Virus record (IMG/VR): IMGVR_UViG_3300036820_000004
Location: 55,754 to 119,753 of that record
Length of the DNA: 64,000 nt
Strand: one strand, 5' to 3'
DNA from: a virus
The notes under the pieces are model-generated. The model searched no databases. It was given only the letters and a program-made list of their open reading frames with translations, and was not told the DNA's origin. The position numbers and the translations under genes were made by a program. This document shows positions 2,186 through 50,997 of the stretch, piece by piece (positions within the stretch are counted from its first letter, which is position 1; each line of letters begins with the position of its first letter).

Positions 2186-2514
2186 CCAGCGGCGAACTGG
2201 CACGGGGCGCCCTCTGCCTGGACGGTTGCGACCGGATCGACATCCACGCTGGCGGTACTTGCGAGCGGGATGGTCAGCCGCTGGTTCCCGGCCCGCTTGA
2301 CATAATGCACCGTCACCCGGACATCCCGGTGTTCACGCCGATCCGCAATGAGGGCGTCCTCATCTACGACATGGTGCTGCCGAAGTGGCCCGGGCCCGAG
2401 GGCGTTCCCTGGACCCCGATGCGGAATGCCTTCGCCCGCTGGCATTCGGGCAAAATCTGCTACACCCTGCCGTCCGGCAACATAGTCCACGTCAAACCAG
2501 ACTGCCGCTGCTGA
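2182..2514 (+). CDS. Hypothetical protein upstream of the portal
   Basis: A 110-residue protein from GTG 2182, coupled to the previous gene by a GTGA overlap. It has scattered cysteines (CLDGCD near the N-terminus and a C-terminal CRC) and a central aromatic stretch around WHSGKICYTLPSG. It is the last small gene before the portal fusion. No family was recognised. Confidence 0.6.
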   Translation: MTSGELARGALCLDGCDRIDIHAGGTCERDGQPLVPGPLDIMHRHPDIPVFTPIRNEGVLIYDMVLPKWPGPEGVPWTPMRNAFARWHSGKICYTLPSGNIVHVKPDCRC

Positions 2515-2535
2515 CGTTCGATGCTGGAGGTGACC

Positions 2536-5500
2536 ATGGCCTCCCCTTCGGCCATCCTCGCAGCGAGCAAATCCATGCCCGGCGGGGGCCGGCCGAACCC
2601 GGGCCCCCAGCAGCAGCAAGGCCCTTACATCGGCCGCATGTCCCCGCTGGTGCAGCAACTCAACAATGAGCATGGATATGCGAATACGTATGGCGGCTTT
2701 TTGCCGAGGCCGCCGCAGACGTTTACCGATGGCGCATTCAGCCCGTTCTCGCCGATCATGCCGGTGCCGATTGATGCGCCACCACCTGGCTTCGAGCGGC
2801 CAGAACCCCGGCGATTCGCCTACGAGGTAGGTTACAACCTTCCTATCGGCGACCCGGGCACTGAGGGCGGCTACAAGCTCGCCCCGTTCTCGGTGCTCAA
2901 GTCGCTGTCGAAGAACTACTCGATCGCGCGGCGCTGCATCCAGCTAGTGAAAAAGGAAGTCTGCGGCCTGGACTGGGACATCACCCTCACCTCCCACGCG
3001 GAGAAGGCCTACCAGGGTGACCATGAGGCGCAGCGGGACTTCGGGGAACGGCGCGCGAAGGCGATGCGGTTTTTCCGCAAGCCGGACCCGAACTACTTCG
3101 ACTTCACGTCGTGGATGTCGGCGATGCTGGAGCAGATCCTCACCATCGACGCCCTGAGCTTGTACCTGTGCCCGAAGAAGGGCACCGGGATGGGCCGGGG
3201 CCTGCTCGGCTCGGACCTGGACGGCTTGTGGTGCATCGACGGGGCGACGATCCGGCCGCTGCTGAACCTGCACGGCGGCATGCCCGTCCCCCCCGCGCCC
3301 GCCTACCAGCAGTACGAGTACGGCGTGCCCCGCGCTGATTTCACGACGGTGATGGCCGGCCTGGACCTGCCCGAGATCGCCGGCGGGGAACGCGGGGCTT
3401 ACCGCGGCGACCAGCTGGTCTACCTGCCGATGTGCCCGTTCCCTGACTCGCCGTACGGGTTCTCCCCGACCGAGCAGGCGCTGGTCCCGATCCTGACCGG
3501 GCTCCGCAAGCAGGGCTACCAGCTGGAGTTCTTCACCGAGGGCACCGTGCCCGCGGTTTATATTTCACCAGGCGATACATCCATGACTCCCAATCAGGTA
3601 AGGGAGCTTCAGGATGCATTGAATGCGGTCGCGAACGACCAGGCATTTCATTGGAAAGTCATTGTTTTGCCGCCTGGAAGCAAAACAATGCCACAAAAGC
3701 CTAATGATATTGTCGACCAGAGCGACGAGTGGATCGCCAACGAGGTCTGCATGATGTACGGCGTCTCCCCCATGGACGTCGGCATCCTCCCCAAGGTGTC
3801 CACCGTGGCCAGCCCGTTCGCGGCGCGGGAAATGGCGCAGGCCAGCCGCACCAACCAGGAGAAGACCGACACCACGCCGCTGCTGAAGTTCATCGCCTCG
3901 ATCCCGAACTTCATCCTCCAGATCGTGTGCGACCAGCCGGACATGGAGTTCTCGTTCGAGGGCATGCGCGAGGTCCAGGACGAGGCGGCGCTGACCGACA
4001 CCTACGTCAAGCAGGCGCAGATCGGTGTCCGGTCGGTCGACGAGTTCCGCGACAAGATCGGCCTGCCGCCGTGGGGCCTGGACGAGACGAGCGGCCCGCT
4101 GGTGTTCACGCCGATGGGACCGATCCCCCTGTCGGAGGCCGTGTCGATCGCGCAGGCGCAGGCACAGGCCAAGGCACTGCCGCCCGGGTCGTCCGGCGCC
4201 AAAAAGCCCGCGGTGACCGCGAAGCCGCTGCCGTCCGGCACCGTCACCGGGCGGCAGCGCGCCCGCGGCGGTGCCGCGCTCACCCCGGCGCACGCCGCGT
4301 CCGAAGGGTTCATGCCCGAACGGTCGGCCAAGAAGCCCTCGGCGGGCCCGGCTCACGCCCAGGCGTCAGTTAAGGCGACGCTGGCCGAACTGGAGGCCCT
4401 GACCCGGCACCTGCGCAAGGGACGCCTGATCTCCACATGGGAAGCCCGGCATCTCGAGCCCCGCGCGCTGTCGCTGATCGCCGAGCAGATGGCGAAGGGC
4501 ATGGACGCCGAGCAGGCCGCGGGCCTGGTGAAGACCATCGTCCTGCCGCCCGCGTCCTACCAGTGGGCAGAGAAGGCCCGGCACGAGCAGTCCCCGCAGG
4601 CTCAGATCCAGGCGCAGCAACTGGCCCTGGAGCAGGAGTACACGCGGCGGATCGAGGCCGCGTTCGCGTCCGCTGCCGCCGCGGCGGCGAAACTCATCGC
4701 CGCGTGGGGCGCGGGCACTCTCGCCGTGACTACCGCGGTCCTCGCCGGGCTCATCGCCGCCGAGTTGCGCAAGGCGCTGACGGCAGCGCTGAGCGGCCTG
4801 TGGGCCGACGCGTGGGCGCACGGCGAAGCCGAAGCAGGCGGATCCGCTGGCGGGGCGCTGGAAGCGTTCCTCGGCACCGTCGGCCGGCAGGTGCAGGAGT
4901 GGGTCAGCGAAACCAACGTCGCCGCCATCATCGCCGACCTGCGGGACCTGGCCGGCCTGAAACGCAAGGCCCTGATCGCCGCGCTGCTGCGACTCCTCAA
5001 GGCAGATGAGCGGGCCGAACTCATCGCTGTCACCGAGCTGATGCGCGCCTGGAACCAGGCCGTTCTCGCCGTCTGGAAGCTGCTCGGGGTCACCTATAAG
5101 GGCTGGCAGACCCGCAACGACGCCAAGGTGTGTTTCCCCGCAGGTACGCCCGTGGCGACGCCGACTGGCGAAGTGCCGATCGAGCGGCTAAAGCCCGGGG
5201 ATCTCGTCATCACGCCAGAGGGGCAGCGTCCCGTCATTGCCACCATGGAGCGCCTGTACACAGGTGGCCTTACGGTGATTCAGGCGGAAGGCCGGACGGT
5301 CACGGCGACTGACAATCACCGGTTCATGACCACCAACGGCTGGCGCAAGGCTGCCGACCTCAAGCCCGGGGACCTCCTCAAGTCGCTTGAGGACGAGTCG
5401 GCAGAGATTGGCAGCGTCGTTCACTTCTCGCTCGCCCAGCCGGATGACGTGCCAGCCGAGGCGGCCAAGTTCCGCATCGCGGATGGCGTCCTTGGCCGCA

Positions 5501-7776
5501 GTCCGCTGGTGCCAGTACTCGCCGTCGGCCTCAATGGCGACGGCGAGACTGGTGAGCGCGAAGTCGATCGTCCAGCGGCTCACGTCAAGTTCGGGCGTGA
5601 ACTCAAGGCGCAGCAGGGTGAGCGCCTGACGGACGCGGAACTCCAGCATGGTCTCGCCCGTAAACTTGCGGTAGCAACTGCGGGAGCAGAACTGCCGATC
5701 GGCAGCGGCAAGGCCCGGCTGCGTGCGGAAGGTGACACTGCACGTCTTGCAGGTGAGGTAGACCGGTGGCCGGCGGCATTCCTCGGAACAGAACCGCCTG
5801 TTGAGATGCTTCTCAGCCCGGAAACGCGTTCCGCAGCGGTCACAGTCGACGTACTTGGTCTCGGCAGTGGTACATGCCCGCGAGCACGTCCTGTAGCGCT
5901 CGGCGGTGGACTGGCTGACGGTGAAGTCCTTGCCGCAGACAATGCAGGTCTTCGTGACCTTGCAACTGTCCTCGTAGCACGCCCGGGAGCAGTGGATCTT
6001 GGTCTTGTTATTGAGCCTGCCGGGGCGGAAGACGATGCCGCAGCCCGGGCAAGTGCGTTCGGCGTGGACGCGCGTAGCGGTGTGATAGCACTCGTTGGAG
6101 CAGAAGACTCGGGGGCTCCGGGTGCGCTGAGCACGCACGACGATTTTGCTGCACTGGGCGCATTGGTAAGTGAATGGCACGGACAGGCTTCCCCCATTCA
6201 AGCCATTATCGTTAATCACCCGCTTACAGTTTACAATGTCAGCGTTGAAACGGAGCCCGTTTACTACGCGAGTCGCTTCCTAGTTCACAATTGCGGGGAA
6301 TGCAAGGCCAACCAGGCGGCCGGCTCCATTCCCGTCGGTGCGCGTTTCCCCAGCGGCGACCTGATGCCGCCAGGACATCCGCGCTGCCGGTGTCATGCGA
6401 CCGCGCCCCCGCCCGGCTGGACACCCCCGGTCACGGCCGCGAACAAGAAGCGCAAGCGGGGCGTGAACCTGGACGGCGAAGTCGTTCTGGCCGACGCCAA
6501 GCCCGGAGACGAGAACCCTGCCGGCGGAGGTGGCCGCACCCTTTACCCGCACCGCCCTGACGGAACCGAGGTACCCGGGGGTGTTCCCGGCGCGTCTGCG
6601 GGAGGGGAGCCGCCGCGCTGGGACGCCTCCACCCCGGAACGCCGCGGCTACGTCAACACCTACGGCGAGGACGACGGCGACTGGCCTGAGCATGTCCGCG
6701 AGGTCGCGCCCAGGCCGGATCAGGACTACCCGGACGGCGGCGGCGAAGACGAGGACCTGTGGCCGGAAGGCGGCCACGGCACCGCCCAGCCCCCGGTGAC
6801 GTCGATCGGCGGCGGACCGCGCGGCCGGGCACCAAACGCGGTGGGCAAGGCCGCCGACGCTGCGGCACAGTTCCTGAAGGACGCGCCGAAGGCCAAGGCC
6901 AGCGCGGTGCGCAAGCTCATGCAGGAGAACTTCCCGCCGGACGCCCTCGCCTGGGTAGGTCGCGCCACATGGGTGGGCCCCGTTGAGATCCCGCTGGAAC
7001 TCATGGACCTGTCCGGCCGGAAGGGGTGGGCGGCGAGCCACCAGCAGGGCCACGTCAAGGCCATCGCCCGCGACCTGAAGGCCGGCCGGAAAGTCAACGA
7101 GATCATCGGCGTGCTGCGCCCGGGTCACAACCACGTCCGCCTTGTTGACGGCAGGCATCGCACCCTGGCCTGCGAGAAGAACAAGATGCCGGTCCGCGGC
7201 TACGTCGGGTTCCTGGACCGCGACTCCGACCTGGAAGCGGCGTATGACACCTACCACCAGCAGCATCACTTCGGGGACAGCCCGAAGAACAAGGCCGCAG
7301 GCTACGACCTGAGCCCGCGGTCGGGCATGATCTCCCTGGACCTGCCGGAAGGCCTCATCCAGCCGGTGCCCGGCGGCGTGGACGACCACCACGTGACGGT
7401 CGCCTACCTCGGCAAGGATGTGGACGATAGGGAGCTGGATATTGTGCTGGCGCAGGCACGCACCGCGGCCCGGCATGCTCCGGGCCCGCTGGCCGGGATG
7501 CTGTCCGGCATCGGCTCATTCCCGCCGTCCGATGGCAGTGACGGCATGGTGCCCGCGTTCGTCCCGGCCCGCATCCCCGGCGCGGAGAAGCTCCGCGCCG
7601 ACCTTGAGCACCTGTCGGCCAGCGAGCACAAGGACTGGGCGCCGCACGTCACCCTCGCCTACCTGCAGCCGGGTGAGCCGCTCCCGGCGCCGCATCCCCC
7701 GGTGCCGGTGACGTTCACCCACCTGTCAGTGCACCGGGGCGATGAGGTGTACCGGTTCCCGCTGGGTGGCGAGTGA
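2536..7776 (+). CDS. Portal protein fused to MuF head-morphogenesis domain, ParB-like domain and 2H phosphoesterase domain; intein-containing precursor
   Basis: The frame encodes 1746 residues; splicing out the intein (residues ~866-1252) would leave 1359. ATG 2536 is preferred over ATG 2521 because GGAGG lies at 2526-2530. Residues ~100-500 form a portal-type domain (SVLKSLSKNYSIARRCI, then LTGLRKQGYQLEFF and MMYGVSPMDVG), which would be the dodecameric DNA channel at the capsid vertex. Ala-rich helices at ~690-860 lead into a MuF motif that the intein splits: DAKV before it and CGECKANQ...PPGHPRCRC after it. At ~1478-1590 a ParB/sulfiredoxin-like domain carries VDGRHRTLA. The last ~140 residues carry two HxT motifs, HHVTVAYL (~1618) and PHVTLAYL (~1703), diagnostic of 2H phosphoesterases (2'-5' RNA ligase-like). 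MuF C-termini in temperate phages often carry variable effector domains; delivery of these domains with the DNA is inference. Confidence 0.88.
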   Translation: MASPSAILAASKSMPGGGRPNPGPQQQQGPYIGRMSPLVQQLNNEHGYANTYGGFLPRPPQTFTDGAFSPFSPIMPVPIDAPPPGFERPEPRRFAYEVGYNLPIGDPGTEGGYKLAPFSVLKSLSKNYSIARRCIQLVKKEVCGLDWDITLTSHAEKAYQGDHEAQRDFGERRAKAMRFFRKPDPNYFDFTSWMSAMLEQILTIDALSLYLCPKKGTGMGRGLLGSDLDGLWCIDGATIRPLLNLHGGMPVPPAPAYQQYEYGVPRADFTTVMAGLDLPEIAGGERGAYRGDQLVYLPMCPFPDSPYGFSPTEQALVPILTGLRKQGYQLEFFTEGTVPAVYISPGDTSMTPNQVRELQDALNAVANDQAFHWKVIVLPPGSKTMPQKPNDIVDQSDEWIANEVCMMYGVSPMDVGILPKVSTVASPFAAREMAQASRTNQEKTDTTPLLKFIASIPNFILQIVCDQPDMEFSFEGMREVQDEAALTDTYVKQAQIGVRSVDEFRDKIGLPPWGLDETSGPLVFTPMGPIPLSEAVSIAQAQAQAKALPPGSSGAKKPAVTAKPLPSGTVTGRQRARGGAALTPAHAASEGFMPERSAKKPSAGPAHAQASVKATLAELEALTRHLRKGRLISTWEARHLEPRALSLIAEQMAKGMDAEQAAGLVKTIVLPPASYQWAEKARHEQSPQAQIQAQQLALEQEYTRRIEAAFASAAAAAAKLIAAWGAGTLAVTTAVLAGLIAAELRKALTAALSGLWADAWAHGEAEAGGSAGGALEAFLGTVGRQVQEWVSETNVAAIIADLRDLAGLKRKALIAALLRLLKADERAELIAVTELMRAWNQAVLAVWKLLGVTYKGWQTRNDAKVCFPAGTPVATPTGEVPIERLKPGDLVITPEGQRPVIATMERLYTGGLTVIQAEGRTVTATDNHRFMTTNGWRKAADLKPGDLLKSLEDESAEIGSVVHFSLAQPDDVPAEAAKFRIADGVLGRSPLVPVLAVGLNGDGETGEREVDRPAAHVKFGRELKAQQGERLTDAELQHGLARKLAVATAGAELPIGSGKARLRAEGDTARLAGEVDRWPAAFLGTEPPVEMLLSPETRSAAVTVDVLGLGSGTCPRARPVALGGGLADGEVLAADNAGLRDLATVLVARPGAVDLGLVIEPAGAEDDAAARASAFGVDARSGVIALVGAEDSGAPGALSTHDDFAALGALVSEWHGQASPIQAIIVNHPLTVYNVSVETEPVYYASRFLVHNCGECKANQAAGSIPVGARFPSGDLMPPGHPRCRCHATAPPPGWTPPVTAANKKRKRGVNLDGEVVLADAKPGDENPAGGGGRTLYPHRPDGTEVPGGVPGASAGGEPPRWDASTPERRGYVNTYGEDDGDWPEHVREVAPRPDQDYPDGGGEDEDLWPEGGHGTAQPPVTSIGGGPRGRAPNAVGKAADAAAQFLKDAPKAKASAVRKLMQENFPPDALAWVGRATWVGPVEIPLELMDLSGRKGWAASHQQGHVKAIARDLKAGRKVNEIIGVLRPGHNHVRLVDGRHRTLACEKNKMPVRGYVGFLDRDSDLEAAYDTYHQQHHFGDSPKNKAAGYDLSPRSGMISLDLPEGLIQPVPGGVDDHHVTVAYLGKDVDDRELDIVLAQARTAARHAPGPLAGMLSGIGSFPPSDGSDGMVPAFVPARIPGAEKLRADLEHLSASEHKDWAPHVTLAYLQPGEPLPAPHPPVPVTFTHLSVHRGDEVYRFPLGGE
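5131..6291 (+). other. Intein (387 codons) inserted in the MuF motif of the portal fusion
   Basis: The intein begins at Cys codon 5131-5133 (CFPAGTPVATPTGEVPIERL) and ends at His-Asn (VHN, Asn codon 6289-6291), followed by the +1 Cys of the extein. Block A is therefore intact. Block B is TATDNHRFMTTNGW, with the Thr and His needed for N-S acyl shift. Block F reads VYNVSVETEPVYYASRF. All catalytic residues for protein splicing are present. No LAGLIDADG or sense-strand HNH domain occurs between blocks B and F. The forward translation there is low-complexity and Ala/Gly/Val-rich, because that DNA encodes a nuclease on the opposite strand. Insertion at the most conserved cysteine motif of MuF is typical of inteins, which target sites that cannot easily be lost. 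Confidence 0.9.
5188..6219 (-). CDS. Antisense homing-endonuclease-like gene nested in the intein (zinc-knuckle repeats plus Vsr/DUF559-like nuclease)
   Basis: A 343-codon frame runs opposite to the portal gene entirely within the intein. Its N-terminal ~185 residues hold about five CxxC...Cx3C zinc knuckles (CAQC/CSNEC, CPGC/CSRAC, CIVC/CSRAC, CDRC/CSEEC, CKTC/CSRSC). Residues ~190-285 match a Vsr/DUF559-type PD-(D/E)XK nuclease: an E in LEFRVRQALTLL, WTIDFAL, IEADGEYWHQ, then RDAELGRLGWHVIRL. This is the nuclease class known from split-intein-associated homing endonucleases. The ordered cysteines and nuclease motifs make this a real gene rather than a shadow. The start may be GTG 6219 or, more likely, GTG 6180, which has GGGGGA upstream. 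The last ~65 codons overlap intein blocks A and B in antisense, so both strands are constrained there. Confidence 0.82.
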   Translation of the reverse strand: MINDNGLNGGSLSVPFTYQCAQCSKIVVRAQRTRSPRVFCSNECYHTATRVHAERTCPGCGIVFRPGRLNNKTKIHCSRACYEDSCKVTKTCIVCGKDFTVSQSTAERYRTCSRACTTAETKYVDCDRCGTRFRAEKHLNRRFCSEECRRPPVYLTCKTCSVTFRTQPGLAAADRQFCSRSCYRKFTGETMLEFRVRQALTLLRLEFTPELDVSRWTIDFALTSLAVAIEADGEYWHQRTAAKDAIRDAELGRLGWHVIRLGEREVNDAANLCRLVLKRLEEVPGLEVGSLAPAVGGHEPVIVSRRDRPAFRLNHRKATCVQALHGGNDGTLPLWRDDEIPGL

Positions 7777-8087
7777 TGCTGGCTGATCCGGATCGGCCAT
7801 GCCTGCACGGGAACTTCAGGGCCGGTGTTGAGGTCAACCGCCTCAGCGACACCGAGAATGGCCCGGTCACGGGCTACGCGGCCGATATCAAGGTCTGGTG
7901 CGATGACTGCGGCGAGCCATTTCGCTGGATCGGAGTGCAGGCCGGCCTTGACCCGCGCAGGCCGATGTGTTCCGTGGACGAGACGGAACTTCGAGCACCG
8001 CTGCGGCCTGCATCCGCAGACCCGGACTTCGGTTTGGGCATCCCCGGCTTCGCGGTGACATGGCGCGAGGGTTCCGGCAATGGCTAG
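7776..8087 (+). CDS. Hypothetical zinc-ribbon-like protein
   Basis: A 103-residue protein from ATG 7776, which shares its A with the portal stop (TGATG). The centre contains VWCDDCGEPFRWIG, a CxxC followed by an aromatic FxWxG pattern often seen in small actinophage proteins of unknown role. An N-terminal CLHG could supply more metal ligands. Tight coupling to the portal implies expression with head genes. Confidence 0.7.
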   Translation: MLADPDRPCLHGNFRAGVEVNRLSDTENGPVTGYAADIKVWCDDCGEPFRWIGVQAGLDPRRPMCSVDETELRAPLRPASADPDFGLGIPGFAVTWREGSGNG

Positions 8088-17868: not shown

Positions 17869-18594
17869 GTGACCACCCTCACCAACTCGTTCGAGGGCGG
17901 CACCAGCGGCACAACCATCACCCCCGGCAATTCCGGCGGGGTGTCAGGGAACGCGTTCGACGTCGTTAACATCGGCGCATCGGCCGCACTCGCCTACAGC
18001 AACACCCAGGCCGCGCATGGCACGCTGTCAGGCGAGTTCACCGAACCCGGGACCAGCACAACGTGCTTTGCGGCCTGGGCCGGGAGCCTGACCGGGTCCT
18101 CGCTGGCCACCATCTGGTACCGCGCCTACGTTTACCTGCCGGCGCTGCCCCCGGTCACCAACATGAGGCTCATCGCCCCCTACGACAGCACCTCGATCTG
18201 CGCCGGGATCGCGGTCAGCACCGCAGGCAAGATCGTGGTCCAGGCCGGGACCACGGACACGACGCAGTACACGAGCACCAGTGCGGTCAACACCGCCGGG
18301 TGGTTCCGGCTGGAGGGTTTCGTCACCGGGTCGGCCAGCGCGGGCCAGGTGTCGATGGCGTTGTACAACTCGCCGGACTCCGCGACGGCCACCGAGACCT
18401 TCACCTCGGCCGCCAGCCTGAACACGACCGGCGCGATCACCAGCGTCCGGTTCGGCTCCTCGGCGCAAGGCACGAATTACTCCTGGTTCATGGATGATCT
18501 CGGCGCTTCCAGCACCGGTCCGGTTGGTCCCGTTGTCAGCCCTGCCGCCGGCGGCGGCAGCAGCATCGTCCCTGTTCTCGTCGCGAGCATGTGA
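17869..18594 (+). CDS. LamG/concanavalin-like surface protein, copy 1
   Basis: A 241-residue protein from GTG 17869. It begins TTLTNSFEGGTSGTTIT and then repeats jelly-roll-like strands (IWYRAYVYLPALP, GWFRLEGFVTG), ending in a SWFMDDLGASSTGP hinge and a Gly-rich tail. Its N-terminus and domain order match the protein at 37311-38024, so the phage encodes two related copies, one near the head genes and one among tail-tip genes. The fold suggests glycan binding or a head fibre. The following glycosyltransferase starts 13 bases later. Confidence 0.75.
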   Translation: MTTLTNSFEGGTSGTTITPGNSGGVSGNAFDVVNIGASAALAYSNTQAAHGTLSGEFTEPGTSTTCFAAWAGSLTGSSLATIWYRAYVYLPALPPVTNMRLIAPYDSTSICAGIAVSTAGKIVVQAGTTDTTQYTSTSAVNTAGWFRLEGFVTGSASAGQVSMALYNSPDSATATETFTSAASLNTTGAITSVRFGSSAQGTNYSWFMDDLGASSTGPVGPVVSPAAGGGSSIVPVLVASM

Positions 18595-18607
18595 AAGGGA
18601 GGCGCCT

Positions 18608-19744
18608 GTGCGGATCCTGGTTTACTCAAACGCGCCGTGGGCCTGGTCGGGGTACGGCACGCAGACCGCGCAGCTGGTTCCGCGGCTGGCCGCCGCCGGT
18701 CATGAGGCGGCGGTGGCCGCGTTCCACGGCTTGCAGGCCGCGCCGCTGAACTGGCAGGGGTTCATGGTGTACCCGGGCAGCGGCGAGGACCCGTGGGCGC
18801 AGGATGTGCTGCAAGGCCACTACGCCCACCACCAGGCGGACCTGCTCCTCACCCTCATGGACGCGTGGGTGCTGAACCCGGCCCTGCTCGCCGGCATGAA
18901 TGTGGCCCACTGGATGCCGGTCGACTGTTCTCCGCTATCGGCGATGGACAAGCATGTCCTCACCGAGGGCGGCGGCAGGCCCGTCGCGATGAGCGGTTTC
19001 GGCCGCCGCCAGCTGGAAGACGCCGGCTGGGCACCGCTGTATGTTCCGCACGCGATCGACACGCAAGCCATGTTCACCCCGCTCCCGGACCGGGATGCTC
19101 TGCGCAGCGAGCTCGGCCTGGCCGGCCAGTTCCTGGTCGGCATCAACGGCGCCAACCAGGACCCGGTCAGGAAAGGCCTAGCCGAGCAGTTTGAGGCGTT
19201 CGCCGCGTTTCGCTCCGCGCACCCGGAAGCGCTGCTGCTGGTCAACGCACGGTGCGAAACCCGGCAAGGTATCAGCCTGACCGCCCTGGCCGCCGCGCAC
19301 GGCCTCGGCCCGGACAGCGTCCAGTTCGCTGACCAGTACCTGTACTCGGCGGGGCTGTTCGGACAGGACAAACTCGCTCGCTGGTACGGCTTGCTGGACG
19401 TGCTGTCGAACTGTTCCTTCGGTGAGGGGTTCGGCTTGCCCGTCCTCGAGGCACAGGCATGCGGGACACCGGTCGTGGTCACGGACTTTTCCGCGATGAC
19501 CGAGCTGTGCGGCTCCGGGTGGCTTGTGGAGGGCAGCCGGTTCTGGAACAAGGGCCACTCCGCGTGGTGGCTGCGGCCGTCGGCAGCGGCCATCGCCGGC
19601 GCGTACGAGGAAGCGTTCGCGTTGTGGCAGGCCGGGGGCCTGGGTGCCTACCGGGAGAAAGCGCGGCAGTTCTCGCTGGCCTATGACGCTGACCGCGTGC
19701 TCGCCGAGTACTGGGTTCCCGCACTGGCTGAACTCGCCGGCTAA
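18608..19744 (+). CDS. GT4-family glycosyltransferase (copy 1)
   Basis: A 378-residue GT-B glycosyltransferase. GTG 18608 follows GGGAGG, and this start gives the first Rossmann strand RILVYSNAPWAWSGYGTQTA. The C-terminal domain has the retaining-enzyme EX7E motif in FGEGFGLPVLEAQACGTPVV. It has no signal peptide or membrane segment, so it acts in the cytoplasm. It heads a glycan cassette within the structural operon; likely acceptors are virion proteins, though a nucleotide or cell-envelope acceptor is possible. The paralogue at 20351 is about as long but has a damaged N-terminus. Confidence 0.85.
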   Translation: MRILVYSNAPWAWSGYGTQTAQLVPRLAAAGHEAAVAAFHGLQAAPLNWQGFMVYPGSGEDPWAQDVLQGHYAHHQADLLLTLMDAWVLNPALLAGMNVAHWMPVDCSPLSAMDKHVLTEGGGRPVAMSGFGRRQLEDAGWAPLYVPHAIDTQAMFTPLPDRDALRSELGLAGQFLVGINGANQDPVRKGLAEQFEAFAAFRSAHPEALLLVNARCETRQGISLTALAAAHGLGPDSVQFADQYLYSAGLFGQDKLARWYGLLDVLSNCSFGEGFGLPVLEAQACGTPVVVTDFSAMTELCGSGWLVEGSRFWNKGHSAWWLRPSAAAIAGAYEEAFALWQAGGLGAYREKARQFSLAYDADRVLAEYWVPALAELAG

Positions 19745-20350: not shown

Positions 20351-21457
20351 ATGGCTCCCTACTTTAGGGCTGGCTATGGCGCTCAGACGGCCATGCTAGC
20401 GCCCCGGCTGGCAGCAGCCGGCTACGAGGTAGCGATCTCCGCGTTCGCCGGGCTGCAGGGCGCTGCGACCACGTGGAACGGTCACACCGTCTACCCGGGC
20501 GGTCTTGACCCCTACGGCGGTGACGTCCTCCCGGCCCACGCGGCCCGGTTCGGCGCCGACCTCGTCCTCACCCTCATGGACGCGTGGGTGCTGAACCCGG
20601 CCATTGTCAACGGCCTGAACGCGGCGTGCTGGATGCCTGTCGACTGCACGCCCCTGTCGGCGATGGACCGCGGGTTCCTGCGCAACTCCGGGGCCCGGCC
20701 CATCGCGATGAGCGAGCACGGGCGCGCCGAACTCGAAGCCGCCGGGTGGGCTGCTCTGTACGCGCCGCACGCGGTGGACACGCAGGCGTTCGCCCCGCAG
20801 GACAAGACCGCGGCGAGGAAGGTCATGGGCGTCCCGGCGGACGCCTGGGTGATCGGAGTCAACGCAGCCAACCTGGACGCGGTCCGCAAAGGCTTCCCGG
20901 AGCAGATGGCCGCGTTCGCCGCGTTCCGCAAGGACCATCCCGAGGCGATCCTCCTGCTGCACACTCATCCCGCCGGCCCCGGTTCCGGATGCGATCTGCG
21001 GGACCTGGCCGGCCGGCTGGGCATCGGCGACGCGATCCGCTGGTCCGATCCTTACCGGTACACCTGCGGCGGGTTCAGCACGGCGGACATGGCCCGCTGG
21101 TATGCCTGCCTGGACCTGTACTCCGGGTGCGCGTACGCCGAAGGATTCGGCCTGCCGCTCCTCGAAGCCGCAGCGTGCGGTGTCCCGTCGGTGACCACGT
21201 CATTCTCGGCGATGCCGCAAGCCGCCGGGCCGCACGCCTACCTGGCCGCAACCGAGCCGTTCTGGAACGCCCGGCACCGGGCCTGGTGGGGCAAGCCGCT
21301 GGTCGCTGACATCGCCGCAGCCTACGAGCAGGCATTCAAGGACGAACACGACAGCGACGCGATCCGTGCCCACGCCCTGGCCTACGACGCGGACGCGGTG
21401 TTCGCGGAGCACTGGCTGCCCGTCCTGGCGGTCCTGGCGGAAGGAGGTGCCTGTTGA
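20351..21457 (+). CDS. GT4-family glycosyltransferase (copy 2), N-terminally altered
   Basis: A 368-residue homologue of the 18608 enzyme: TLMDAWVLNPA, MPVDCTPLSAMD and EGFGLPLLEAAACGVPSV align throughout, including both glutamates of EX7E. The N-terminus is MAPYFRAGYGAQTAMLAP, whereas copy 1 has RILVYSNAPWAWSGYGTQTA, so the first beta strand of the GT-B fold is replaced by an unrelated short stretch. This is where the oppositely oriented HAD gene begins. There is no clear ribosome site before ATG 20351. Either the enzyme tolerates the loss or expression is impaired. It overlaps the next gene by 4 bases. Confidence 0.8.
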   Translation: MAPYFRAGYGAQTAMLAPRLAAAGYEVAISAFAGLQGAATTWNGHTVYPGGLDPYGGDVLPAHAARFGADLVLTLMDAWVLNPAIVNGLNAACWMPVDCTPLSAMDRGFLRNSGARPIAMSEHGRAELEAAGWAALYAPHAVDTQAFAPQDKTAARKVMGVPADAWVIGVNAANLDAVRKGFPEQMAAFAAFRKDHPEAILLLHTHPAGPGSGCDLRDLAGRLGIGDAIRWSDPYRYTCGGFSTADMARWYACLDLYSGCAYAEGFGLPLLEAAACGVPSVTTSFSAMPQAAGPHAYLAATEPFWNARHRAWWGKPLVADIAAAYEQAFKDEHDSDAIRAHALAYDADAVFAEHWLPVLAVLAEGGAC

Positions 21458-49512: not shown

Positions 49513-50997
49513 ATGGACAGCGTCCCGCCCCGCGAATACGCCCTTTACCTCCGGAAAAGCAACGGCCCCATAGGTATCCTGCGGCAGCGTACCGCCACGA
49601 CGACCTATATCAAGGGCAAAGGCGGCGTCATCGGTCCCGTGTTCGAGGACGCCGACCGGACCGCCTTCCGGAAGGGCACTGACCGGCCTGAGCGCGAGGG
49701 CTTCGACGAGATGCTCGGATGGCTGAGCCAGCGGAGCGGCGCTGGCGCTGCCGCATGGCACGCCGACCGGTTCGTGCGGGATCCCGAGGAAGCCGAACTG
49801 CTGATCCGTGTGTGCCGGGACCGCGGTCACATGGTCGAAACCAAGGCGGGCGGCGCCTATGACATGTCCACCGCGAACGGGCGCAAGCACTTCCGCCAGG
49901 ATGCACTGGACGCTACCACCGAGGTCGACCACAACACCGAGCGCATCATCGAGCAGAAGGCCGAGGCCGCCGCGGCGGGCCTGTGGCTCGGTGGCCTGCG
50001 CCCGTTCGGCTGGGAAGGCATCCCTGCCGAGCCGGGCAGCGAGACCAAGTTCCTCGGCCTTCGTGTCGTCCCGCTCGAGGCCGCCGCGCTCCGCTCGGCC
50101 GCCGGGGCGATCCTGGAAGGCACCAGCGTCACGTCGATCGCTGCGGAGTGGAATGCCCGCGGCATCAAAGGCACCTCTGGCGGCCCGTGGGACGCCGGGC
50201 GGCTGAAGCGGGTGCTGCTGCGCCCTCGCAACGCCGGGCTCGTCGTCCACAACGGCGTCGAGAAGGGGACCGCACAGTGGGATCCGGTCATGCCGCTCGA
50301 GGTGTTCCGCGCACTAGAAGTGAAACTGAACGGCCGGAGGAAACCGGGCCACCCGTCTGCAAGGGTCTGGCAGGGATCGGGCTTGTACCGGTGCGGGGTG
50401 TGTGACAAGCCCGTTGGCGTGCACGGCGGCACCGGGGGGCATCACCGGACGTCCTACACCTGCCCGGGTCACGTAGCCCGTCAGGCAGTCAAGGTCGACA
50501 AGCACGTGAGCGCTATCGTCACCGCTTACCTTGGTCGCCTGGAAGCCGCCGCCGCCCTGGCCGCGGCAACAGTGCCAAGAGGCGAGGACGTCACGCTGCT
50601 GCGGGCGCAGATCACCGCCATCGAAGGGCGCCGCAAACGCGTCGCCGAGCGTTATGTTGACGGCACGGCTGATGACGACGAGCTCGACGCGTCAGTTGCC
50701 CGCGCCCGCGAGGAAATCGCGGCGCTGGAGAAGCGGATCGCCGAAGCGGGGCGGGTGAATCCCCTCACCAGCGTGGCGGGAGACCAGCGCATCGGTGAGA
50801 AGTGGCCCGGCTACCCGGTCAGCCGCAGGCAGGCCATCATCCGGGAACTGCTCGTGGTACGAATCCACCCCGCCGGGCCCGGCCGGCCGCCGGGTGTCCA
50901 GTGGCCGGAGACATGGTTTGACAGGGACCTGATCGAGATCCTTCCCGGGCCGGTGTTCGGCGCGGCCGCCCCGGCTGCGCCGCTGACCGTCCCGTAG
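49513..50997 (+). CDS. int: Large serine recombinase (phage integrase)
   Basis: A 494-residue protein. The N-terminal catalytic domain has ALYLRKSNG (probable nucleophile Ser16), AWHADRFVRDPEEAELL in the place of the conserved DR..R, and a recombinase domain (GLWLGGLRPFGWEGIPAEPG; SVTSIAAEWNARGIKGTSGG). The zinc ribbon is GLYRCGVCDKPVGVHGG...TSYTCPGHVAR. A coiled coil at ~375-440 (QITAIEGRRKRVAERYVDGT) completes the large-serine-integrase plan. Such enzymes integrate with simple attP/attB sites and need a separate directionality factor. The attP would be expected near 49.4-49.5 kb or past 51.0 kb but was not identified. Confidence 0.9.
   Translation: MDSVPPREYALYLRKSNGPIGILRQRTATTTYIKGKGGVIGPVFEDADRTAFRKGTDRPEREGFDEMLGWLSQRSGAGAAAWHADRFVRDPEEAELLIRVCRDRGHMVETKAGGAYDMSTANGRKHFRQDALDATTEVDHNTERIIEQKAEAAAAGLWLGGLRPFGWEGIPAEPGSETKFLGLRVVPLEAAALRSAAGAILEGTSVTSIAAEWNARGIKGTSGGPWDAGRLKRVLLRPRNAGLVVHNGVEKGTAQWDPVMPLEVFRALEVKLNGRRKPGHPSARVWQGSGLYRCGVCDKPVGVHGGTGGHHRTSYTCPGHVARQAVKVDKHVSAIVTAYLGRLEAAAALAAATVPRGEDVTLLRAQITAIEGRRKRVAERYVDGTADDDELDASVARAREEIAALEKRIAEAGRVNPLTSVAGDQRIGEKWPGYPVSRRQAIIRELLVVRIHPAGPGRPPGVQWPETWFDRDLIEILPGPVFGAAAPAAPLTVP

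Follow-up and report, generated by a model that had tools for sequence, protein, structure and literature searches.

How can an intein that interrupts a phage structural gene be mobile if its own reading frame holds nothing that resembles a homing endonuclease? This question is raised by a stretch of 64,000 nucleotides (the window), part of a 119,753-base virus record (IMG/VR record IMGVR_UViG_3300036820_000004), in which one long open reading frame (ORF) for a portal/MuF-like protein contains an intein at 5131-6291. An earlier note, made from the letters alone, had proposed that a homing endonuclease is encoded antisense inside this intein. The analysis presented here makes it very probable that the insert is a mobile intein that carries its homing endonuclease as a separate antisense gene within it, codon against codon.

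Results

The insert in the portal/MuF-like gene is an intein with an exact empty site

A scan for relatives of the host gene found one locus, L082, which lacks exactly the intein segment and reads TRNDAKV/CASCRANQAAG at the site. Its DNA is 79.8% identical to that of the window before the insert (2604 columns) and 82.8% identical after it (998 columns). The insert is exactly the intein, placed precisely and in frame, and both kinds of allele that the earlier note had proposed to look for in relatives, intein-minus and nuclease-minus, were found. In Pfam searches the window intein matched Hint_2 (E 1.1e-11) and Intein_splicing (E 6.7e-6, below Pfam's own cut-off for this intein), the latter family being matched at E<=1e-3 by 23 of the 24 aligned inteins, with that of the window among them. 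The initial cysteine (C1), the T..H of block B and the C-terminal HN were invariant in all 24, and a Cys directly followed the HN in the loci viewed; the window intein also has this Cys+1, so that the full set of splicing residues claimed in the note is present. AlphaFold and the fold search gave the insert a HINT fold, with the bacterial intein-like domain 2lwy and gp41-1 as the closest folds.

In the sense frame only residues 1-102 and 361-387 were well predicted. The note's remark that nothing recognisable is encoded between blocks B and F agrees with the predicted local distance difference test (pLDDT) values below 50 for residues 103-360. A functional sense peptide in the nuclease region was considered and rejected, since this region is predicted to be disordered and the most variable position there was sense position 1. 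The splicing domain's own frame holds no endonuclease of the kind that defines a canonical large intein, and the host ORF is unbroken, unlike that of a fractured gene with a split intein; the host frame stays open through the insert and the nuclease lies in another frame.

The host had been named as a portal gene. The portal domain is indeed present at host residues 136-513 (PF04860, E 2.9e-16), but to it has to be added a downstream MuF-like region, marked by the motifs CxxC and HPRCRC, and the end of the ORF matches 2_5_RNA_ligase2 at E 2.4e-5, below that family's cut-off. Pfam gave no match to PF04233 in the virus record, so that the MuF-like label rests on homologues and on the CxxC...HPRCRC motif, which we take to be a mark of the MuF region.

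The opposite strand encodes a zinc-knuckle nuclease

The longest antisense ORF is that of 343 codons pointed out in the note (5188-6219, minus strand), aligned codon against codon with the host frame. The homologous nucleases have their initial MPF or MF where the window has the codon GTG (6178-6180), so the gene, judged from these alignments, is probably 5188-6180, encoding 330 amino acids. The five zinc knuckles and the Vsr/DUF559-like nuclease that had been read from it were borne out by a five-sequence alignment, in which five CxxC...CxxxC units are visible, and by matches to DUF559 (E 2.4e-9), MTES_1575 (E 4.5e-9, just below the cut-off) and Vsr (E 0.008, below the cut-off). DUF559 was matched by 35/35 aligned nucleases, in which four cysteines are invariant and most other cysteines at least 90% conserved. 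E180, E217, D219, W223 and H224 are also invariant in the 35, and 3r3p lacks some of these positions in the alignment. The E-D-x-H-D pattern is what we take to be the catalytic motif of EDxHD/Vsr-like enzymes. AlphaFold modelled the window nuclease with a mean pLDDT of 84.5, residues 282-330 being mostly below 50. When compared with Vsr-type nucleases, as the note had suggested, its best solved relative was I-Bth0305I (3r3p; profile E 1.2e-16, Foldseek E 2e-4), and Vsr was more remote (1cw0, profile E 3e-6). The catalytic domain, as modelled, is akin in sequence and fold to EDxHD/Vsr-like homing enzymes.

The end of the nuclease does overlap intein blocks A-B, as the note had it, but the tail is predicted to be disordered there, and we rejected the overlap as functional. 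In 20 of the 25 mapped homologues the nuclease ends at intein codon 48-79, and in the other five (the window, L001, L023, L049 and L051) at codon 10-19. A Shine-Dalgarno match of at least 4 bases was found at 11 of the 25 antisense starts vs 2.8 expected; these starts were set by rule, L060 having none, and those of L017, L060 and L077 are uncertain.

Both frames are kept open in AT-rich homologues

In the codon-aligned antisense register a sense stop appears as the nuclease codon TTA, CTA or TCA, and these codons are absent from the nuclease region in 24 nested loci, for which an open frame was itself one of the criteria of membership. From the codon usage of the same contig, 14.4, 17.7 and 19.0 such codons would be expected in the AT-rich loci L026, L003 and L060, and the log10 P of finding zero is -9.8, -11.1 and -12.4, respectively; summed over the 24 loci it is -72.9, ignoring relatedness. 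Ten free-standing relatives contain 1 to 25 of these codons, and the fractured locus L050 contains 15. Furthermore, when the 30 most similar of 300 homologue pairs were compared, variability was in every one highest at the third position of the nuclease codon, whereas in the intein blocks it was highest at the third position of the sense codon, in all 14 pairs listed. These opposite peaks mean that the middle is constrained as a nuclease and the ends as a splicing domain, on opposite strands. Judged from these codon patterns, dual coding is under selection, which acts on opposite strands in different segments.

The antisense arrangement recurs across viral loci

Loci were collected by nuclease scans of viral contigs (17 and 57 loci) and of genome contigs (6 loci), and by an intein C-block scan of viral contigs (72 loci), the scans overlapping in part. 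Each locus was classified by matching it to profiles of the intein ends and, in six frames, to a nuclease profile built mostly from nested members; inteins were clustered at 85% identity. A codon-aligned antisense nuclease was present in 44 of the 66 intein clusters: 40 with the sense frame open (that of the window included), 3 with sense stops and 1 remnant. The other clusters have the nuclease on the same strand in the +1 frame (7), in frame (2), or no nuclease of the window's family (13), and no register besides these three was seen among the 66. The C-block scan alone gave 47 antisense loci, 8 same-strand +1 loci and 17 without a nuclease match. Since all loci were found by homology searches based on the nuclease or the intein, these proportions are not prevalences; in this census the nuclease match is divided into two or three pieces in L051, L094 and L124. 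The claim that one DNA segment stays open on both strands thus holds in 40 of 43 antisense clusters, and the remaining three (L050, L104 and L105) keep the nuclease open and have the sense frame stopped, the opposite of the broken antisense frame that would speak against a nested gene.

Among the six genome-contig loci only L077 was a nested case. It lies on a bacterial contig (Gordonibacillus kamchatkensis, L077:5695-6933), where a non-MuF host resembling an HNH protein has the antisense arrangement. A single MuF-like protein in L106 contains two inteins: the one at the first CxxC has its nuclease antisense, the one at the CRC site in frame.

When four nested-type zinc-knuckle nucleases were compared with a phage collection by tblastn, 21, 67, 24 and 74 records matched, and the best 21 of 21, 30 of 67, 24 of 24 and 20 of 74 were all at most 35.1% identical. 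Plasmid searches with the nuclease gave 16 and 5 records, all below 60% identity. Remote zinc-knuckle DUF559-like relatives were seen in Mycobacterium phage records (H1-H17), annotated as hypothetical and lying beside or under a DNA methylase gene.

Cultured Gordonia phages carry other nuclease-like antisense ORFs

Codon-aligned antisense ORFs were also found in inteins of cultured Gordonia phages (L161, L163, L164, L166, L167 and L168). In phage Barsten, gp15 is a MuF protein (PF04233, E 1.3e-10) interrupted at EVIN/CRC by an intein of 275 residues. Inside this intein a 206-codon ORF runs antisense, codon-aligned, with matches to PHROG 5046 'HNH endonuclease' (E 1.9e-15) and I-MsoI (3fd2, E 2.9e-4). 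We take I-MsoI to be a LAGLIDADG enzyme, on which basis the ORF is labelled LAGLIDADG-like; no Pfam family was found for it. It is also present in SchottB, Nordenberg, Thing3, Sitar and Lennon (9 records, 6 phages), and the same site is empty in Geodirt (L165). At this site Kewpiedoll and Vivi2 have different inserts whose codon-aligned antisense ORFs resemble helix-turn-helix (HTH) and nuclease families: GcrA (1.5e-4) and DUF559 (0.003) in Kewpiedoll, both below the cut-off, and HTH_58 (1.1e-11) and MTES_1575 (1.2e-4, below the cut-off) in Vivi2, whose insert ends in RN instead of HN. Because the Gordonia phages are GC-rich, an open frame alone proves little here, and it is homology that carries the case.

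The inteins of Barsten and SchottB are identical over 825 bases, while their exteins are 88.5% and 84.3% identical; those of Lennon and Thing3 are likewise identical over 825 bases, with exteins 95.3% and 97.0% identical. Identical inteins in diverged genes indicate a recent lateral movement of the intein together with its antisense nuclease, which, as read from these alignments, has taken place among Gordonia phages. The Gordonia cases fall in the field of preprint 10.1101/2025.01.02.630785 (actinobacteriophage inteins, 'non-canonical architecture').

The observed registers are those that force no stop

Enumeration showed that only the codon-aligned antisense and the same-strand +1 registers lack any dipeptide that forces a stop in the intein frame. 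Elsewhere the mean number of forced stops per nuclease over 35 proteins was 0.5 (same-strand +2), 2.9 and 3.9 (the remaining registers), and same-strand +2 was feasible without a stop for 20 of the 35. The out-of-frame registers found are exactly the two that force no stop. The same register rule was derived for narnaviruses, according to the part of that report available (PMC6884476). The rule is not absolute: in the accessible portion of PMC11855218, ShiLan-type inserts in phage methylases are described as carrying an out-of-frame HNH nuclease, and the ShiLan insert seems to use same-strand +2. Shared ancestry may also lie behind part of the register constancy.

The second permitted register is used by DUF559- or HNH-like nucleases in helicase-/terminase-like inteins (L126/L128, L127, L130, L131, L133, L142 and L154, the host labels being read from flanking sequence), and further same-strand +1 loci are L156-L159 and L162. 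These overlaps have zero intein-frame stops vs 9.5 to 21.6 expected under random synonymous coding, a result reached in none of 2000 random draws for any of 8 rows, and the third position of the nuclease codon was the most variable in 10/10 pairs of five loci. Unannotated +1 overlaps also occur in cultured phages: Vibrio phage CP-T1 gp10 (with a DUF559 match of the overlapping ORF at E 1.1e-11), Corynebacterium phage phi673 gp43, Pseudomonas phage MR14 gp44, and Vibrio phages 159E43-1b and 1.270.A. No nuclease was annotated at these places in the Gordonia and helicase records viewed, which indicates that annotation likely misses this antisense or overlapping class. On balance we lean slightly towards regarding out-of-frame nesting, seen with zinc-knuckle DUF559, HTH-DUF559 and LAGLIDADG-like enzymes, as a second general architecture of mobile inteins.

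Nuclease-less, remnant, fractured and free-standing states

Inteins without the window's nuclease family were found at the MuF-type site in L097/L098, L099, L100/L102 and L101, and in L119 (4577-5063) a 162-residue intein retains a decayed C-terminal piece of the antisense nuclease. In the fractured loci the antisense nuclease lies between in-frame intein halves, with 15 sense stops in L050 and 9 each in L104 and L105; in the C-half of L104/L105, codon 330 is an ATG preceded by AAAAGG. From this layout the three are candidate natural split inteins.

A free-standing nuclease is convergent with an intein-less MuF match in 6 of the 11 records (L021, whose MuF match is below Pfam's cut-off, L040, L047, L052, L057 and L062), at a gap of about 30-140 nt. 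L020 and L063 (a broken gene) are next to a MuF gene by motif only, L008 is on the same strand, and L002 and L032 are 3.2 and 8.4 kb away. In free-standing homologues the frame opposite the nuclease is closed. In a tree of 53 nucleases the long branches of L017 and L077 are placed with little certainty. Eight changes are needed to account for the free-standing rows on it, and well supported branches force at least 7 of these. The free-standing labels are scattered about as in shuffled trees (8 changes vs a mean of 9.3; as low in 71 of 500 shuffles). This pattern fits a nuclease that alternates between positions next to and within the gene it presumably targets, the order in which free-standing, nested and fractured forms would follow one another being inferred.

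Features of the window

The features of the locus are collected in Table 1. Elsewhere in the window, an integrase-like ORF (49513-50997, plus strand; phrog_95, E 5.6e-58) suggests, from its sequence, a temperate phage, and two glycosyltransferase-like ORFs lie at 18494-19744 and 20351-21457 (plus strand; phrog_2170, E 1.1e-23 and 3.4e-17).

Table 1. Coordinates of the intein, its host gene and the antisense nuclease gene in the window
Feature	Position	Strand	Basis or remark
Host ORF, 1751 codons/aa	2521..7776	+	Portal domain, MuF-like region, weak 2'-5' RNA-ligase-like end
Intein, 387 codons, junctions DAKV/.../CGEC	5131..6291	+	Pfam, splicing residues, L082 lacking exactly this segment
N-terminal HINT part, intein residues 1-102	5131..5436	+	AlphaFold pLDDT about 88-97 per ten-residue block
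Sense reading of nuclease region, residues 103-360, predicted disordered	5437..6210	+	pLDDT <50 throughout
C-terminal HINT part ending HN, residues 361-387	6211..6291	+	Alignment and AlphaFold
C-extein CGEC...HPRCRC stretch of MuF-like region	6292..6396	+	Sequence, empty-site relative; presumably rejoined by splicing
Probable antisense nuclease gene, 330 codons + stop	5188..6180	-	GTG start 6178-6180
Five zinc-knuckle-like units, residues about 1-175	5656..6180	-	Alignments, AlphaFold
DUF559/EDxHD-like nuclease domain, residues 178-265	5386..5649	-	Pfam, profile and fold search
Nuclease tail, residues 282-330, predicted disordered, over intein blocks A-B	5191..5337	-	AlphaFold

Discussion

Proposed mechanism and alternative explanations

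We propose that the structural gene would be translated straight through the insert, and that the two HINT parts would fold around a disordered loop of ~258 residues and splice the portal/MuF-like protein. An antisense transcript would yield the zinc-knuckle nuclease, which would cut the same gene in co-infecting phages wherever it lacks the intein, so that repair would copy intein and nuclease together. As the nuclease has to avoid only TTA, CTA and TCA, all of which have synonyms, the sense frame can remain open with no nuclease residue sacrificed. Several points weigh against this proposal. Splicing, antisense expression and empty-site cleavage are deduced from sequence, and homing by the nuclease is our interpretation of it. 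The window nuclease start has no good Shine-Dalgarno match, and a consensus scan of 5050-6700 on either strand gave no sigma-70-like promoter. The lateral movement was seen in Gordonia phages with a different nuclease, not in the window's own family, and among the cultured-phage matches listed for the nested zinc-knuckle type no MuF gene was found, by annotation alone. In the window itself the log10 P of having no TTA, CTA or TCA is only -0.82 (probability about 0.15), and other long antisense ORFs exist, e.g., one of 398 aa at 6280-7476.

The last point bears on the view that GC-rich coding DNA yields such an antisense frame as a by-product, the similarity between relatives merely mirroring a conserved sense protein. 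Since the window is GC-rich, its open antisense frame alone is weak evidence, and the doubly open segment described in the earlier note is selected in AT-rich homologues but in the window, taken alone, fits chance; homology and the AT-rich relatives carry the case. In the AT-rich relatives none of 14-19 expected codons occurs; nuclease third positions are the most variable in the 30 most similar of the 300 pairs, the antisense protein matches DUF559 and folds well where the sense reading does not, and free-standing homologues have the opposite frame closed. A chance ORF was rejected on the AT-rich homologues, the codon-position test and the fold, and we give the by-product view hardly any credence. 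An RNA intron in which the open sense frame is incidental is just as improbable, even though group I introns with a homing gene on the antisense strand are known, as stated in the part of PMC9548176 available. No catalytic intron RNA (group I/II) was matched by Rfam in window 2400-8000 at E<=0.1, nor was anything above the gathering scores in six homologous loci, and on this lack of a match the RNA intron was rejected; moreover, the splicing residues and the HINT fold are conserved, and open sense frames in the AT-rich relatives would be needless.

It could also be that the nuclease homes, but that an intein with so long a loop splices poorly or only cleaves, so that the host protein would function in part unspliced or as separate pieces. 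In three clusters the sense frame is already broken, and the fold is near the bacterial intein-like domain 2lwy. Given the invariance of C1, T..H and HN in 24/24 aligned inteins, the Cys after HN in the loci viewed and the strong selection for an open sense frame, we regard this as very unlikely. Finally, the nested nuclease might no longer home and be kept to exclude competing phages, or to regulate the structural gene via antisense RNA, an option that draws on the free-standing relatives adjoining intein-less MuF genes and on the fact that antisense expression and cutting are deduced. The intein-minus relatives, the remnant and nuclease-less inteins and the identical inteins in diverged Gordonia genes fit a homing cycle instead, which leaves a nuclease that no longer homes an unlikely explanation.

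Relation to known systems and significance

Going by its anatomy, the window element should behave as a mobile intein equipped with an EDxHD/Vsr-like enzyme, the variant being the antisense placement. It shares with large in-frame mobile inteins the HINT halves around a homing-type nuclease, the precise insertion and the empty alleles, but here the nuclease has an antisense gene to itself, and what the sense frame encodes there is predicted to be disordered. In 2009 Dassa reportedly described fractured genes that combine split inteins with Vsr-like nucleases. These genes too have an EDxHD/Vsr-like nuclease between intein halves in phage genes, whereas here 40 clusters keep one unbroken host ORF, which is broken only in L050, L104 and L105. 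In ShiLan-type inserts, according to the accessible part of the report, an in-frame insert likewise hides an overlapping nuclease gene and its host-frame reading is disordered; this insert uses the same strand and the third frame and is per its authors neither intein nor intron (PMC11855218), while the present cases are inteins, with the nuclease antisense or same-strand +1. Nuclear group I introns, in the portion of PMC9548176 available, also have a homing gene opposite the strand of the host gene, but they are removed as RNA from rDNA, so that no host-protein frame must stay open. Ambigrammatic narnaviruses have a codon-aligned reverse ORF kept open by synonymous choice, but these are RNA viruses and, as far as the part of PMC6884476 available states, this ORF is without known function. 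An intein with a homing endonuclease has been reported in a phage minor head protein (PMC7468147, seen in part). Among the literature matches listed, no title or opening of an abstract described an antisense nuclease in an intein; an earlier account is possible in Gorbalenya 1998, in Dassa 2009 or in preprint 10.1101/2025.01.02.630785, the first and last of which are cited for overlapping reading frames in the accessible part of PMC11855218.

In the arrangement proposed here the two halves of a mobile intein are separated, with splicing kept in the host protein and homing in an independent gene. This would be a naturally recurring example of extended head-on dual coding, with a probable role for each product and governed by a simple rule as to which registers are permitted. 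As a single nuclease family occurs side by side in nested, remnant, fractured and free-standing form, the origin of split inteins becomes testable, and the Gordonia terrae phages Barsten and Geodirt provide a cultured intein-plus/intein-minus pair. If out-of-frame nesting is general, a sense stop that arises would fracture the gene; nested inteins would then arise from neighbouring free-standing nucleases with the same target gene, and would in turn supply natural split inteins.
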